A DNA stretch of 64,000 nucleotides, taken from NCBI RefSeq assembly GCF_022170825.1, contig NZ_CP081878.1, positions 2,816,001 through 2,880,000 on the forward strand, given 5' to 3'. Shown here in pieces: positions 37,477-44,911 of this stretch. The notes under the pieces are model-generated. The model searched no databases. It was not told the origin of the DNA and saw only the letters and a list, made by a program, of their open reading frames with translations. Both the position numbers and the translations under genes were made by a program. The stretch is from Exiguobacterium acetylicum (lineage in GTDB: Bacteria > Bacillota > Bacilli > Exiguobacteriales > Exiguobacteriaceae). Positions within the stretch are counted from its first letter, which is position 1; every line of letters starts with the position of its first letter.

Positions 37477-37582
37477 AGAAGGGTTCACGAAATACACGGT
37501 TCGCTTTCTGCTTTTTTCATGCAGAAAGAGACCATCTCCTGAAAATGTTTTTTCAGAAAACAGCTTGAATCGCGTCGTTTCG

Positions 37583-37721
37583 TTCTTCTCCCATCCGGAC
37601 TTTACCGTCGGCCCTGGAATCTCACCAAGTCAGCCATGATGCGTACATCACGGGTCGCGGGCTCGTCGATCAATCGATCGCATCACCGCCGGTTGGGATT
37701 TTCACCCTACCCCGAAGAACT
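37583..37721 (-). ncRNA. FMN riboswitch (RFN element)
   Basis: Read on the minus strand, the conserved RFN pieces are all present in order: CTTCGGGGTAGGGTGAAAAT, CCCAACCGGCGGTGATGCGA, the variable stem, GAGCCCGCGACCCGTG, and the closing CCGACGGTAAAGTCCGGATG then GGAGAAGAACG. It is followed by a terminator just upstream of ribD, so excess FMN should end transcription of ribD-ribE-ribBA-ribH. The remaining part of the 37722-37855 gap has no clear gene. Confidence 0.95.
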
Positions 37722-37855
37722 GGATTATTGAGTTATACAACTTTAGCCTAGCATATCTTTTTGTAGAAAACAAAGCGGAAATGCTTCTGTCATGTCTCTT
37801 TTTTGATTTCGTTCCACTTCTGTCATCCATCGCTAATTCGTGAGCGACTGCATGT

Positions 37856-37906: not shown

Positions 37907-39112
37907 TTATAAATACCCGTTCTTCCGGTCATGGAATTCTTGGGCAATCGCCCCGCGCGTCCGTTCATCGGCAAGGACACGAAGTGCTGTCCGAGCAAGA
38001 ATTTTCGCCCCTGCAATCAATGCCTCATCCCCTTCTTCTGAACGAGCAGCTTCCTTAAAGGCTTCTGTATGCGCAACGAGATCGTCTGGTCCAATCTTGA
38101 TGTACGGATGGATCGTTGGGATGACTTGGCTGATGTTGCCAGCGTCTGTCGATCCGAGACCTGGTCGTTCGTCAAGGTGCACGACTTGTCCAAGCGCCTC
38201 TGCTTCTTCTTGGAAGAGACGGTCGAATGTCCGGTTGAAGACGAGGTTATCGACTTCATTTTGGAAGGCGATGACGTCAAGCGTCGCTCCTGTCGCAAGT
38301 GCCGCACCTTGTGCGACCGCTTTGACTTTCTCTGTGACGGCATTGAGTCGTTCCCGTGTCGTCGCCCGGATGAAGAAACGTGCTTTTGCATATTCCGGAA
38401 TAATGTTCGGTGCATCACCGCCATGGGTGATGATCCCGTGGATCCGGACGTCGTCCGGCAGTTGTTGCCGCAGGGCATTGATTCCGTTAAAGAGCTGAAT
38501 GACCGCATCAAGTGCGTTGATGCCTTCTTCCGGTGATGCCGCTGCATGTGCCGGACGACCAGTAAAAGCAAAATCGAGTGGGTCGACCGCAAGCGATGAA
38601 CCGGTGATCCGTGTTTGTCCCGACGGATGGACCATCAGGGCTGCGTCAATCCCCTCAAGCAACTGATGTTTGACGAAACTGCCTTTTGCACTGCCATTTG
38701 GTCCTCCTTCTTCAGCCGGGGTCCCGAGGACGACGACACTCCCGCCAACTTCATCGAGTACTTTACTGAGCGCAATCGCTGCTGCAACACTCGTCGTTCC
38801 GATGATGTTATGTCCGCATGCGTGACCGATGCCTGGCAACGCATCATATTCAGCCAGAAAGGCAATCGTCGCACCTGGTCGATCGCTCGACTTTTTCGCA
38901 AAGAACGCCGTCTCGTGCCCCGCGACACCAAGTTCTACCGTAAAGCCTTCAGCCGTCAGGCGTTCTGCATGGAGTCGCGAAGCAAAGAATTCTTCGTTAC
39001 CGATTTCCGGTGTCGCATGAATCCGGTGACTTGTCTCAAGATACGATTCTCGTTTTTGTTCGATGTCCTGTTCAATCGTCTCTACCCATGTCGTGCGTAC
39101 TGGTGTCGTCAT
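37907..39112 (-). CDS. M20D-family amidohydrolase, fourth gene of the met operon
   Basis: 401 aa. Metal-binding motifs of the M20D amidohydrolases (N-acyl amino acid or IAA-amino acid hydrolase type): AYDALPGIGHACGHN, TPAEEGGPNGSAK, a lid/dimerisation domain starting FTGRPAHAAASPEEGINALDA (shortened: GRPAHAAASPEEG), and LGSTDAGNISQVIPTIHPYI. Soluble, no signal peptide. AAAGGAGAGTG precedes the ATG at 39112. It lies 22 bp after metQ with no terminator between, so it is SAM-riboswitch controlled with metNIQ. Likely deacylates an imported N-acyl methionine or related amide (inference). Confidence 0.88.
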   Translation of the reverse strand: MTTPVRTTWVETIEQDIEQKRESYLETSHRIHATPEIGNEEFFASRLHAERLTAEGFTVELGVAGHETAFFAKKSSDRPGATIAFLAEYDALPGIGHACGHNIIGTTSVAAAIALSKVLDEVGGSVVVLGTPAEEGGPNGSAKGSFVKHQLLEGIDAALMVHPSGQTRITGSSLAVDPLDFAFTGRPAHAAASPEEGINALDAVIQLFNGINALRQQLPDDVRIHGIITHGGDAPNIIPEYAKARFFIRATTRERLNAVTEKVKAVAQGAALATGATLDVIAFQNEVDNLVFNRTFDRLFQEEAEALGQVVHLDERPGLGSTDAGNISQVIPTIHPYIKIGPDDLVAHTEAFKEAARSEEGDEALIAGAKILARTALRVLADERTRGAIAQEFHDRKNGYL

Positions 39113-39134
39113 ATAGTCCACTCTCCTTTTGAAA

Positions 39135-39972: not shown

Positions 39973-40623
39973 TTAATGTCTTCTGATTTTTCGTGCGACG
40001 ATATTACCTGTCGTCTGTAACCCCTGGACTAAGATGACGAGAATCCCGACCGTGATGATCATGACTTTCGTGTCGAACCGTTGATAACCGTACGTAATTG
40101 CTAAATCACCAAGACCACCGCCACCGATTGCGCCTGCCATCGCTGACGCTCCGATCAAGCCGACCGTTGCGATCGTCAAGTTAAGAACGAGCGAACCGAG
40201 CGCTTCCGGTAGAAGGAAACGGAAAATCGTTTGGAATGGCGTTGCCCCCATCGCTTCTGCTGCTTCAAGGACACCTTTATCGACTTCTAGCAAGGAACTC
40301 TCGATCAGCCGTGCCATATACGGTGCGGCGTAAAAGACGAGTGGAACGATGGCAGCTTCGGTTCCGATCGACGTCTGGACGATCAACCGCGTCAACGGGA
40401 TGATCGCGACGAGTAAGATGATAAACGGAATTGAGCGGAAGATATTGACGATGCTATTGAAAAACGTGAACAGCGGGACGTTCTCAAGTAATGCGCCTTT
40501 CCGTGTGACGACAAGCAGGATACCGAGCGGTAAGCCGATCAAGGTCGAGAATAAGAGTGAGACGGATACCATCGTCATCGTTTGCAAAAATGCTGTCCAG
40601 ATATCACTGTAGTTAACTAGCAT
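39973..40623 (-). CDS. metI: methionine ABC transporter permease
   Basis: 216 aa, about five transmembrane helices with the EAA loop EAAEAMGATPFQTIFRFLLPEA (shortened: EAAEAMGATPFQ) that contacts MetN, and the methionine-permease stretch GAIGGGGLGDLAI. GAGGAGGTG is 7 bases before the ATG at 40623; an earlier TTG at 40629 has poor spacing. It overlaps the metN 3' end by 11 bases. Confidence 0.94.
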   Translation of the reverse strand: MLVNYSDIWTAFLQTMTMVSVSLLFSTLIGLPLGILLVVTRKGALLENVPLFTFFNSIVNIFRSIPFIILLVAIIPLTRLIVQTSIGTEAAIVPLVFYAAPYMARLIESSLLEVDKGVLEAAEAMGATPFQTIFRFLLPEALGSLVLNLTIATVGLIGASAMAGAIGGGGLGDLAITYGYQRFDTKVMIITVGILVILVQGLQTTGNIVARKIRRH

Positions 40624-41641
40624 GAGCAAGCACCTCCTCGACGGTCACTTGTGCCTGATCAATGTACTGTAACGCTCGTTTCACTTCAGTCGTCTCACCG
40701 ATCAACTCGACGAGTAGTGTACCGAACGGCGTCTCCTGCAACTCCGTGATGCTACCGTGCAGGATGTTGACATCAACATCGAAGCGTTTCGCGACTTGTG
40801 ACAAGAGCGGCTGCCCTGTGTGATGACCGAGGAAATGAATCTTATAGATCGGATTCGCATTCCGTGACTCGATCAACTGGCGAATCGATGCTGGAATCTC
40901 GTCATGCATGACGGACCGGACGAAGTTTTTCGCCGTCTCGGTCTGCGGATTTGAGAAGACATCAAAGACCGTTCCTGACTCGATTAACTTCCCGGCTTCG
41001 ATGACGGCGACCCGGTCACAAATCTCACGGATGACACCCATCTCATGGGTAATCAAGAGAATCGTGATGCCGTATTCGGCATTGATTCGTTTTAATAACT
41101 GGAGAATATGATGTGTCGTCTGGGGATCGAGCGCTGACGTCGCTTCGTCACATAAGAGGACGGATGGTTGCGTTGCTAGTGCCCGAGCGATGCCGACACG
41201 TTGCTTTTGTCCACCAGATAATTGATCTGGGTAATGATCCGCCTTATCCGCGAGATCCACGAACTCGAGTAACTCCGTCACCCGGCGGCGAATCTCATCT
41301 TTTTTGACGCCTGCGAGAACGAGTGGCTTCGCGACATTCGTAAAGACCGTGTTCGCATTCAATAGATTGAAGTGCTGAAAGATCATCCCGATCCGCTGTT
41401 TTGCTTGCCGTAATTTTTTTGGTGATAGTTGTGTCAAATCTTCCCCGTCGACCGTCACCGTTCCTGACGTCGGTCGTTCTAACAGATTGACGCAGCGGAG
41501 CAATGAACTTTTTCCGGCACCACTAAAGCCGATGACACCGAAGATTTCGCCTTTCTCGATCGTCAGGTCGACACCGTCGAGCGCTGCGATTGTCTGATCC
41601 TTCGTGACGTACGTTTTTTTGATTTGATGAAATGCAATCAT
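40613..41641 (-). CDS. metN: methionine ABC transporter ATP-binding protein
   Basis: 342 aa. ATPase core (about 1-245): Walker A GFSGAGKSS, signature LSGGQKQRVGIARAL, Walker B VLLCDEATSALD, switch His in LITHEMG. The C-terminal NIL domain (about 265-342) is the methionine-sensing regulatory domain of MetN proteins. AAGGGGGAAAAC precedes the ATG at 41641. First gene behind a SAM riboswitch and terminator. Confidence 0.95.
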   Translation of the reverse strand: MIAFHQIKKTYVTKDQTIAALDGVDLTIEKGEIFGVIGFSGAGKSSLLRCVNLLERPTSGTVTVDGEDLTQLSPKKLRQAKQRIGMIFQHFNLLNANTVFTNVAKPLVLAGVKKDEIRRRVTELLEFVDLADKADHYPDQLSGGQKQRVGIARALATQPSVLLCDEATSALDPQTTHHILQLLKRINAEYGITILLITHEMGVIREICDRVAVIEAGKLIESGTVFDVFSNPQTETAKNFVRSVMHDEIPASIRQLIESRNANPIYKIHFLGHHTGQPLLSQVAKRFDVDVNILHGSITELQETPFGTLLVELIGETTEVKRALQYIDQAQVTVEEVLAHAS

Positions 41642-41664
41642 TCCGTTTTCCCCCTTCATTCAAC

Positions 41665-41700: not shown

Positions 41701-41729
41701 GGATCCGCACAGTGGCAGAATCCACTCCA

Positions 41730-41829
41730 CTCATCTCTCAGACATCTGTCTGATGGAATTGGCACAGTGCTCATAATGAGTCTGTTGCCGAGGTTTCGTA
41801 GGGCCAGTCCCTCCACCTCTCTGGATAAG
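41730..41829 (-). ncRNA. SAM-I riboswitch (S-box) controlling metNIQ-M20
   Basis: Minus strand reads CTTATCCAGAGAGGTGGAGG, GACTGGCCCTACGAAACCTC, GGCAAC, a variable P3 arm, GTGCCAATTCC, the P4 arm and GAGAGATGAG, all S-box consensus blocks, with P1 CTTATC/GATGAG. It is coupled to the terminator at 41665-41700. High SAM should stop transcription of the methionine uptake operon. Confidence 0.95.
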
Positions 41830-41893
41830 TATTGCGGTATGAAATTCGTATGTGTGTTGTTGCGTTGTTGCTTATGTCGTAAAACTAATTTTT

Positions 41894-42016: not shown

Positions 42017-42046
42017 TTGACAAGTCATTTTCAGTCATGCTACCAT
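42017..42046 (+). promoter_or_regulatory. candidate promoter of the second S-box transcript
   Basis: TTGACA (42017-42022), 18-base spacer, TACCAT (42041-42046), about 37 bases upstream of the aptamer. Confidence 0.55.
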
Positions 42047-42082
42047 CGTTTCAATGATTAATCCGACAATTCCAATATGATA

Positions 42083-42178
42083 TTTATCAAGAGTGAACGA
42101 GAGACCTGGCTCTATGACTTCACGGCAACCTGCAATCTGTAAGGTGCTCCGACCAGCAAAGCGCGGCTTTGGATGATA
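42083..42178 (+). ncRNA. SAM-I riboswitch (S-box), variant, ahead of an alpha/beta hydrolase
   Basis: Blocks in S-box order: TTATCAAGAG, GAGAGACCTGGCTCTATGA, CGGCAACC, AAGGTGCTCCGACCAGCA, a P4 hairpin AAAGC-GCG-GCTTT, and GGATGATA closing P1. Compared with the common GAGGGA/GGCCC pair it has GAGAGA/GGCTC, a compensatory change that keeps the stem. A strong terminator follows. Class call is from memory of the consensus. Confidence 0.85.
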
Positions 42179-42183
42179 CGGTG

Positions 42184-42227
42184 AAAAACTCGTGGGCGTC
42201 CAAGCAGTGACGTTGACGAGTTTTTTT
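42184..42227 (+). terminator. S-box expression-platform terminator
   Basis: AAAACTCGT...CGTC...GACG...ACGAGTTTT stem with an internal loop, then a run of seven T ending right before the gene's ribosome binding site. Confidence 0.85.
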
Positions 42228-42249
42228 CATGAATGGAGGAAAAATAGTA

Positions 42250-43008
42250 ATGATGAACTATCCTGTATTGACTGGTGCTGAAGCATTTTATCTTCAAGGT
42301 GGACCGATCGGCATTCTAATCTGTCATGGTTTTAACGCGACTCCGCAAAGTGTCCGGGACGTCGGCGAGGCATTTGCTGCTGAAGGATTCACTGTCTATG
42401 CACCGCGCCTACGTGGACACGGAACGAACGTCCGTGAGTTCGAACAATCGACTGCTCGATGTTGGAAGCAGAGCCTGCAAGACGGCTATGCACGGTTACA
42501 AGAAACATGCGATCAAGTCTTCGTTATCGGTCAATCGATGGGGGCGACGCTTGCACTGTCGCTTGCCGCTGACGGGATTCCGTTTGCCGGCATCATTACA
42601 ATCAATGCTGCACTTTCCGTTCCATCCTATGAAGCACTTTCGTTTGACGACGGTCCCGAGTACTTACCGGAAGGGGCGCCGGACATCAAACGAGCAGCCT
42701 TTGAAATCATCTATGATCTCGTTCCGAGCCGTTGTGCGTTCGAACTCGTCCGTCTGATGGATGAGACAAAAGGACGCCTTGGATCGATCCTCCTCCCGAC
42801 GTTGATTCTTTACTCGGCGACGGATCACGTCGTTCCACCGTCGAGCTCGGATTATCTGCATCAACATATCGGAACAAATGATAAACGAAGCTATTGTCTT
42901 CTTAATTCATATCATGTCGCGACCCTTGATCATGATCAGGATTTGATCGTTCGGGAGACGATTCGCTTTATCGAACGCTCAAGCCGATTTTCAAAAGAAA
43001 TAAGTTAA
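42250..43008 (+). CDS. alpha/beta hydrolase (carboxylesterase Est30-like), SAM-riboswitch controlled
   Basis: 252 aa. Alpha/beta hydrolase fold: oxyanion loop ILICHGFNATPQ, nucleophile elbow IGQSMGA, acid Asp in YSATDHVV, His in NSYHVATLDHD. Closest recognised group is the monoglyceride-lipase/Est30 carboxylesterases. No signal peptide, so cytoplasmic. GGAGGA lies 9 bases before the ATG at 42250 (an earlier ATG at 42229 lacks a site). The S-box and terminator upstream tie it to methionine/SAM status, which suggests hydrolysis of a sulfur-containing ester or thioester (inference). Substrate unknown. Confidence 0.88.
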   Translation: MMNYPVLTGAEAFYLQGGPIGILICHGFNATPQSVRDVGEAFAAEGFTVYAPRLRGHGTNVREFEQSTARCWKQSLQDGYARLQETCDQVFVIGQSMGATLALSLAADGIPFAGIITINAALSVPSYEALSFDDGPEYLPEGAPDIKRAAFEIIYDLVPSRCAFELVRLMDETKGRLGSILLPTLILYSATDHVVPPSSSDYLHQHIGTNDKRSYCLLNSYHVATLDHDQDLIVRETIRFIERSSRFSKEIS

Positions 43009-43060: not shown

Positions 43061-43088
43061 GGACGACCGCAAGCGGTCCGTCTTTTTT
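43061..43088 (+). terminator. terminator of the hydrolase gene
   Basis: GGAC-GACCGC-AAGC... hairpin (GACCGCAAGCGGTC, 43065-43078) followed by CGTCTTTTTT on the plus strand. Confidence 0.75.
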
Positions 43089-44820: not shown

Positions 44821-44911
44821 GGTTGATTTCTCTCCTTCCGCCCTGGTTCATTTGCTGAGCCAGAGTAAGTTACCTTCCTATACTAAACGATTTTTTTGTG
44901 CGTCGCAATAG

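Follow-up and report, generated by a model that had tools for sequence, protein, structure and literature searches.

What does a SAM-I (S-box) riboswitch do in front of a gene for an alpha/beta hydrolase? The question is raised by a locus of Exiguobacterium acetylicum lying in the window, which is the whole stretch of 64,000 nucleotides analysed here. From the letters alone, the initial annotation had proposed a variant S-box at 42083-42178 that controls, through a terminator, a single Est30-like hydrolase gene with a role in sulfur or methionine metabolism, and it had named a covariance-model search as a check. Run on the entire window with cmscan, RF00162 returned the same element with 62.9 bits (cut-off 44.4; E = 3.1e-12), in a match spanning all model positions 1-108 (Table 1). 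The label "variant" was fair: in the cmscan alignment P2a is formed by GUGAA/UUCAC and P2b by GAG/CUC, the P2 loop carries one extra base, and P1 has merely 4 contiguous pairs. The segments UAUCAAG, GCAACC, GGUGC and GAU, which we take to hold the SAM-contacting bases, are all intact and were invariant across the 19 hydrolase leaders of the genus, the exceptions found in other genera being UAUAAAG in L136 and L183 and GCAGCC in L055 and L056. These conserved pocket segments point to SAM as the probable ligand of the hydrolase leader. An altered ligand class through pocket mutation was considered and is unsupported, given the intact segments. Judged by its sequence, the RNA switch before the hydrolase gene is well supported as real and would be ordinary in its mechanism.

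Table 1. Features of the hydrolase locus and its divergent neighbour (positions in the window)
Feature	Position	Strand	Basis or remark
Promoter-like site TTGACA-18-TACCAT	42017..42046	+	Consensus scan, 10/12 matches; by itself no evidence of function
SAM-I (S-box) riboswitch aptamer, GAGAGA subtype	42081..42182	+	RF00162
Predicted antiterminator, upstream arm (3' arm of P4/P1)	42166..42182	+	Truncated-leader folding
Predicted intrinsic terminator hairpin, followed by U-run	42184..42225	+	Folding, -23.4 kcal/mol at 30 C
Predicted antiterminator, downstream arm (overlaps terminator 5' arm)	42188..42205	+	Truncated-leader folding
Shine-Dalgarno GGAGG	42235..42239	+	Sequence
bMGL-like alpha/beta hydrolase, 252 aa, triad S96/D192/H222	42250..43008	+	Pfam, phmmer, structure model
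Terminator-like hairpin 3' of the hydrolase gene	43065..43078	+	Consensus scan
metN-like ABC ATPase with NIL domain, divergent neighbour	40613..41659	-	ORF; Pfam ABC_tran and NIL
Divergent S-box of metNIQ-like operon, independent element	41728..41831	-	RF00162, 93.7 bits

The terminator that had been placed at 42184-42227 was recovered by folding as a hairpin with a U-run, though it is missing from the output of a simple consensus scan. When the 3' arm of this hairpin was removed, energy folding paired the two antiterminator arms over 15 bp, which on these energies fits the usual antiterminator logic of S-boxes. A terminator was found by script in 26 of 28 hydrolase leaders, with a weak one only in L113 (-0.8), and hairpins with T-runs were seen by eye in L030 and L183. 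Among the 26 leaders with a scripted terminator, folding predicted an antiterminator built from the aptamer 3' end alone in 11; in 14 it drew on more upstream parts, either together with that end or in its place, and for L060 no such pairing was predicted. The predicted antiterminator is non-uniform among leaders, and this counts against our best explanation. Six TTGACA-type promoter-like sites were found in the region by the consensus scan, where 2.4 were expected; the one in Table 1 starts at the first position covered by the initial annotation of this locus. The hydrolase frame opens at an ATG at 42229, and translation likely starts at the ATG behind the GGAGG, judging by the position of that motif.

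An orthologue of the hydrolase occurs in all 19 genomes of the genus (62-100% identity), each with an RF00162 match of 60.0-68.7 bits directly upstream, and P2a covaries among them (GUGAA/UUCAC, GUGGA/UCCAC, GUGGG/CCCAC). The genome from which the window comes (G000) has 11 S-boxes, and a chance pairing was ruled out by this number together with the S-box directly upstream of every genus orthologue. The other ten precede, as far as the reading frames could be read, metNIQ-like operons (three), mtn (two), metK, msrA, two transporter genes and one monooxygenase gene; metN and an amino-acid permease were identified by domain match, and the luciferase-like monooxygenase, the NhaC-like transporter, the mtn operons, msrA and metK are presumed from likeness. 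In the window the S-boxes of the hydrolase side and the metNIQ side lie about 250 bases from each other in a head-to-head arrangement, and the divergent metNIQ-like operon includes what we take to be an M20 amidohydrolase-like gene at 37907-39121. The most divergent orthologue of the genus, L030 (in G005), keeps its S-box with a neighbour other than metN on the other side, so that the hydrolase S-box does not owe its presence to the metNIQ neighbour. That it could be an artefact of the metNIQ S-box was ruled out by L030 and by the separate S-box lineage described below. Elsewhere in the window we observed an FMN riboswitch before riboflavin-like genes (37579-37723, minus strand) and an L31 leader (44832-44865, minus strand).

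The initial annotation had also proposed to look for the linkage in other genomes, where it proved to extend through the genus and into other lineages of Bacilli, but not to the sister genus. There, the homologue (44-52% identity) sits elsewhere, and no S-box was found with it in any of the 19 genomes with our model R1 (11 of the 19 were also searched with Rfam). R1 comprises 18 S-boxes, and the hydrolase leaders of the genus match it by construction, since 8 of them are included. In other lineages of Bacilli the gene-leader pair recurs, the proteins being about 45% identical. When 398 genomes were sampled evenly across the class, 35 places outside the family matched at E <= 1e-45, and 3 of these, all in g42, had an S-box upstream according to R1 (Rfam was run on 20 of the 35 as well). 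Among 80 genomes of the family to which G207 belongs, 34 had a match at E <= 1e-70, with 36 places in total; R1, applied to every one of them, found an S-box upstream of 13 and none upstream of 23. Among genomes with a match, the S-box was upstream in 7/7 of g42, 5/5 of g147 and 1/1 of g148. A scan of GTDB representatives found it in 4 (L096, L098, L113 and L136) of the 80 best of at least 586 relatives; L096 and L136 are not independent of the other counts, since they hold the same hydrolase as L060 (G088) and L190 (G468). Beyond g42, g147 and g148, the named records Bacillus sp. EB01 (L113) and a Bacillales MAG have an S-box upstream of the homologue. In L162 the S-box is located after the hydrolase gene, and this place was excluded from the counts.

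The neighbours of the gene vary widely among the groups in which it follows an S-box: a similar arrangement of two S-boxes, with one gene in between, was seen in g42, and L030 and several other lineages have no metN neighbour in the stretch examined. An S-box precedes 34 of the 127 distinct proteins of the hydrolase clade and none of the 50 others in our protein tree. The link is therefore not obligatory, given its absence from the sister genus and from most clade members, and this weighs against our best explanation. The neighbours of 34 S-box-free clade members, read by eye, had no methionine theme in common, and an Rfam scan for another methionine leader in 20 S-box-free members returned only an rRNA fragment. 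Parsimony placed 5 gains or losses of the leader, of which the starred branches force only 1, by a quick method on a tree with several long branches. Two side observations concern individual records. L096 and L120 are both named Peribacillus frigoritolerans, the former with an S-box hydrolase 71% identical to ours and the latter with one lacking the S-box and 53% identical, so one of the two may be misnamed. In Bacillus sp. EB01, tandem S-boxes (L113:1538-2180, minus strand) lead into a 60-aa ORF, presumably of a Spo0E-type phosphatase, beside the S-box hydrolase.

The hydrolase leaders resemble one another across genera more than they resemble other S-boxes. Aptamers from different genera had a mean identity of 77.5% (minimum 69.7%, 57 pairs), against a mean of 51.7% (maximum 68.2%, 456 pairs) with 38 other S-boxes; the comparison used 12 hydrolase leaders, 9 non-msrA S-boxes of G000 and the best-scoring 29 of 65 non-hydrolase places in five other genomes, L218 being left out because its locus is cut. 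In a FastTree phylogeny, to be read loosely given sequences of about 100 bases, the hydrolase and msrA leaders formed one S-box clade with a local support of 0.999. In 18 aptamers (17 hydrolase, 1 msrA), 93.9% of the helix cells were paired, and the pseudoknot between the P2 loop and J3-4 was 100% paired, with one compensatory change. Changes on both sides occurred at 6 of 32 pairs, where shuffled alignments had a mean of 2.3, none of 500 reached as many and slid versions gave 0-3, a test that kinship among the aptamers inflates. Helix P3 was merely 83.2% paired, its upper pairs often being broken, and the number of further pair types in these aptamers was no better than in shuffled data (234 of 500 shuffles reached it). 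P1 is short: of 28 hydrolase leaders, 25 have 4-5 contiguous pairs and 26 have 4-6, and the other 2, mismatched at the first pair, have none, as compared with 6-8 in the 38 other S-boxes.

A pattern for this GAGAGA subtype matched 46 of the 398 class genomes, in 7 genera, and the reversed control pattern matched none. The hydrolase leader is the sole match in each of the 19 genomes of the genus, and in the sister genus a motif scan found the msrA leader as the match in 19/19 (L250-L268), one of these msrA genes being confirmed by Pfam PMSR. The msrA leader of the genome under study (L010:1501-1604), a riboswitch on methionine sulfoxide reductase, also resembles the subtype. Subtype S-boxes, confirmed as RF00162 by Rfam, further precede a protein of about 100 aa (L242, L243, L245 and L246; in L244 the frame is split) that had no Pfam match over the cut-off in the two copies tested, and in L244-L246 it is followed on the 3' side by a gene which we take to be VOC/glyoxalase-like. 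These relationships suggest a division of labour within the regulon, the S-boxes of a genome being grouped by sequence into lineages with different tasks.

As regards the protein, Pfam matched it to Hydrolase_4 and Abhydrolase, and no NCBIfam model reached its cut-off. The nucleophile, acid and histidine that had been reported as intact are indeed present as S96, D192 and H222, and the triad is kept in 200/200 aligned proteins. The closest solved structures are the monoacylglycerol lipase (MGL) of Bacillus sp. H257 and its kin (phmmer E 2.5e-63), and Est30 is distant (E about 1e-21). The genome has a separate, true Est30-type protein, L040, which is 28% identical to the hydrolase and matches 8HEA, from Exiguobacterium antarcticum, at E 4.1e-149 and 1TQH at E 9.4e-109. 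An Est30-like identity was accordingly rejected. Of what had been proposed for this locus, the single hydrolase gene stands and so does its SAM-I control, by conservation, covariation and a predicted terminator with competing pairing; the Est30 subfamily gives way to a bMGL-like assignment. An AlphaFold2 model (mean pLDDT 96.2) superposed on 3RM3 with a TM of 0.93 and an rmsd of 1.4 (Foldseek E 2.6e-32). In a tree of 177 distinct proteins, computed without L031-L039, the partial L139 and identical copies, the hydrolase fell into a clade of 127 rows with a support of 100, apart from the MGL rows.

This clade carries residues of its own, counted here over rows that include near-copies, in groups assigned from the tree; Ile-145 and Glu-156 follow the numbering of H257 MGL, which we mapped from the phmmer alignment. 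The gatekeeper Ile-145 of the lipase is Ile in 30/30 MGL rows and in 1/141 clade rows, the other 140 having Gly, Asp or Ser; our hydrolase has Gly142 there and thus lacks the hydrophobic gate. Gln95, just before the nucleophile, is found in 140/141 clade rows (Leu in 30/30 MGL rows), and Glu141 and Pro144 each in 139/141. Loss of the gate, Gln95 and Glu141 were seen in 0/30 rows of the MGL clade and in 0/18 intermediate rows. Glu-156, described as binding glycerol in H257 MGL in the part of the source available to us (PMC3829422), is kept in the hydrolase; the same part gives an activity of 82% retained for the I145G mutant of the lipase, and of 38 and 62% on two substrates for I145S. Since the mouth of the pocket is changed and its polar floor kept, a smaller or more polar substrate than that of MGL is suggested. 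Monoacylglycerols still count among the candidate substrates, because Glu-156 is kept and, according to those sections, I145G is still 82% active.

The metabolic setting was surveyed in the 38 genomes of the family and 14 control genomes. MetE (PF01717) was found in 0/38 family genomes and in 10/14 controls. PF02574, a search that we would expect to catch MetH too, matched one protein per genome, about 320 aa long, in 18 of the 19 genomes of the genus and nothing in G005 or in the 19 sister genomes, and was positive in 9/14 controls; MetH was not seen with it in the family. In G000 the PF02574 gene lies directly downstream of an S-box permease gene (L004, C1:3117559-3120027), and we take the two to be an mmuPM-like pair. 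With MetE absent and MetH not seen, homocysteine methylation looks limited or absent, and the absence of MetE from the family suggests methionine scavenging. The S-box regulon here looks to be mainly one of import, salvage and repair, into which an enzyme releasing methionine from derivatives taken up by the cell would fit.

Our best explanation combines these elements. At low SAM, the 3' arm of P4/P1 would form the antiterminator with the terminator's loop and 5' arm, and the hydrolase gene would be read; at high SAM, the aptamer would close P1, the terminator would form and the gene would be off. The product, a serine hydrolase whose clade separated from the bacterial monoacylglycerol lipases, would act within a methionine-scavenging regulon by releasing methionine or a precursor that the cell can use; its substrate would be a small polar ester, thioester or lactone. 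We give this explanation as a whole, the SAM-off attenuator together with the methionine-freeing hydrolase, a probability of roughly 0.6. Its parts differ in strength: SAM-off control of the gene is very likely on the sequence evidence, and we infer the switching itself from the folding models. A role of the enzyme in methionine or sulfur scavenging is probable. That the natural substrate is an ester, thioester or lactone of methionine or homocysteine is a tentative proposal, and rather unlikely to be correct as it stands. The sulfur or methionine role that the initial annotation had put forward, which we still only infer, gains weight from two observations, that the pairing is found again in several genera and that its leaders share a lineage with those of msrA; the ester or thioester that it suggested as substrate is still conjectural.

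Could the enzyme be a plain monoacylglycerol lipase or carboxylesterase, the S-box tying lipid or ester turnover to SAM with no methionine-derived substrate involved? We regard this as unlikely, although the best sequence and fold matches are to H257 MGL and both Glu-156 and the triad are kept. The gate is lost and Gln95 and Glu141 gained almost throughout the clade and in no row outside it, and where a genome has members of both clades together with an S-box, which is so in three (G088, G207 and G224), the S-box is on the non-MGL copy only; a fourth genome, G168, has both clades and neither copy with an S-box. A more specific alternative, a homocysteine thiolactone hydrolase that clears the thiolactone at low methionine and returns homocysteine, seems improbable to us. 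Methionyl-tRNA synthetase edits homocysteine to the thiolactone when methionine is low, and homocysteine could accumulate with MetE absent and MetH not seen; in L060, moreover, a T-box-led gene, presumably MetRS-like, is the second one downstream of the hydrolase. Precedent for such an activity comes from human BPHL, an alpha/beta hydrolase described as an efficient homocysteine thiolactonase in the sections available of PMC4198189. In that enzyme, however, by the same sections, D123 beside Ser122 neutralises the amino group, and the matching position is Met97 here and Met in 189/189 rows.

Finally, there is very little probability that the leader was taken over from the divergent metNIQ S-box next to it, or that it has decayed into a relic with no regulatory function. 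The close head-to-head placement, its likeness to the arrangement in g42 and the short P1 would agree with capture or decay, but the leader and the metNIQ element fall into separate S-box lineages, the pseudoknot and helices of the leader are kept, and it occurs in L030 and several lineages without the metN neighbour in the stretch examined.

The same pairing in several genera of Bacilli makes it likely that the enzyme is part of methionine scavenging. The finding extends the SAM regulon of Bacilli by a clade of enzymes; the recurring leader points to the pathway of the hydrolase, and the diagnostic residues can guide the choice of substrates. We found no description of the S-box-hydrolase link in the open-access full-text literature, as far as its texts could be consulted, which does not establish its absence from print. 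A term search of two surveys, PMC3766115 and PMC2258182, found neither "hydrolase" nor "esterase" in their main text; no open-access paper was found that joins monoacylglycerol lipase, riboswitch and methionine, and within these partly available sources we found no earlier description of the hydrolase target with its leader lineage. A bolder idea, which we consider doubtful, is that the GAGAGA S-boxes form a separate tier of SAM sensors, whose short P1 would set another SAM threshold or admit a SAM-like ligand, and which would control methionine repair and scavenging (msrA, the hydrolase and the small protein) apart from the S-boxes of biosynthesis and uptake, the hydrolase acting, in a way not described before, on an ester, thioester or lactone derived from methionine.

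Compared with known systems, the leader has the aptamer architecture, pocket segments, pseudoknot and predicted terminator with competing pairing of the SAM-I riboswitches (RF00162) of Bacilli, and differs from them in the GAG/CUC P2b, in one more loop base and in its target, an esterase-like enzyme. The enzyme shares only the alpha/beta hydrolase fold with Est30 and EaEst2 (1TQH, 8HEA), from which it is set apart by 21-23% identity and an rmsd > 4.6. It is much closer to the MGL of Bacillus sp. H257 (3RM3/4KE6), with the same fold, triad and Glu-156 and about 43% identity, and yet it belongs to a separate clade with a support of 100, has lost the Ile-145 gate, and carries Gln95 in place of Leu, Glu141 in place of Ala or Ser and Pro144 in place of Ser.
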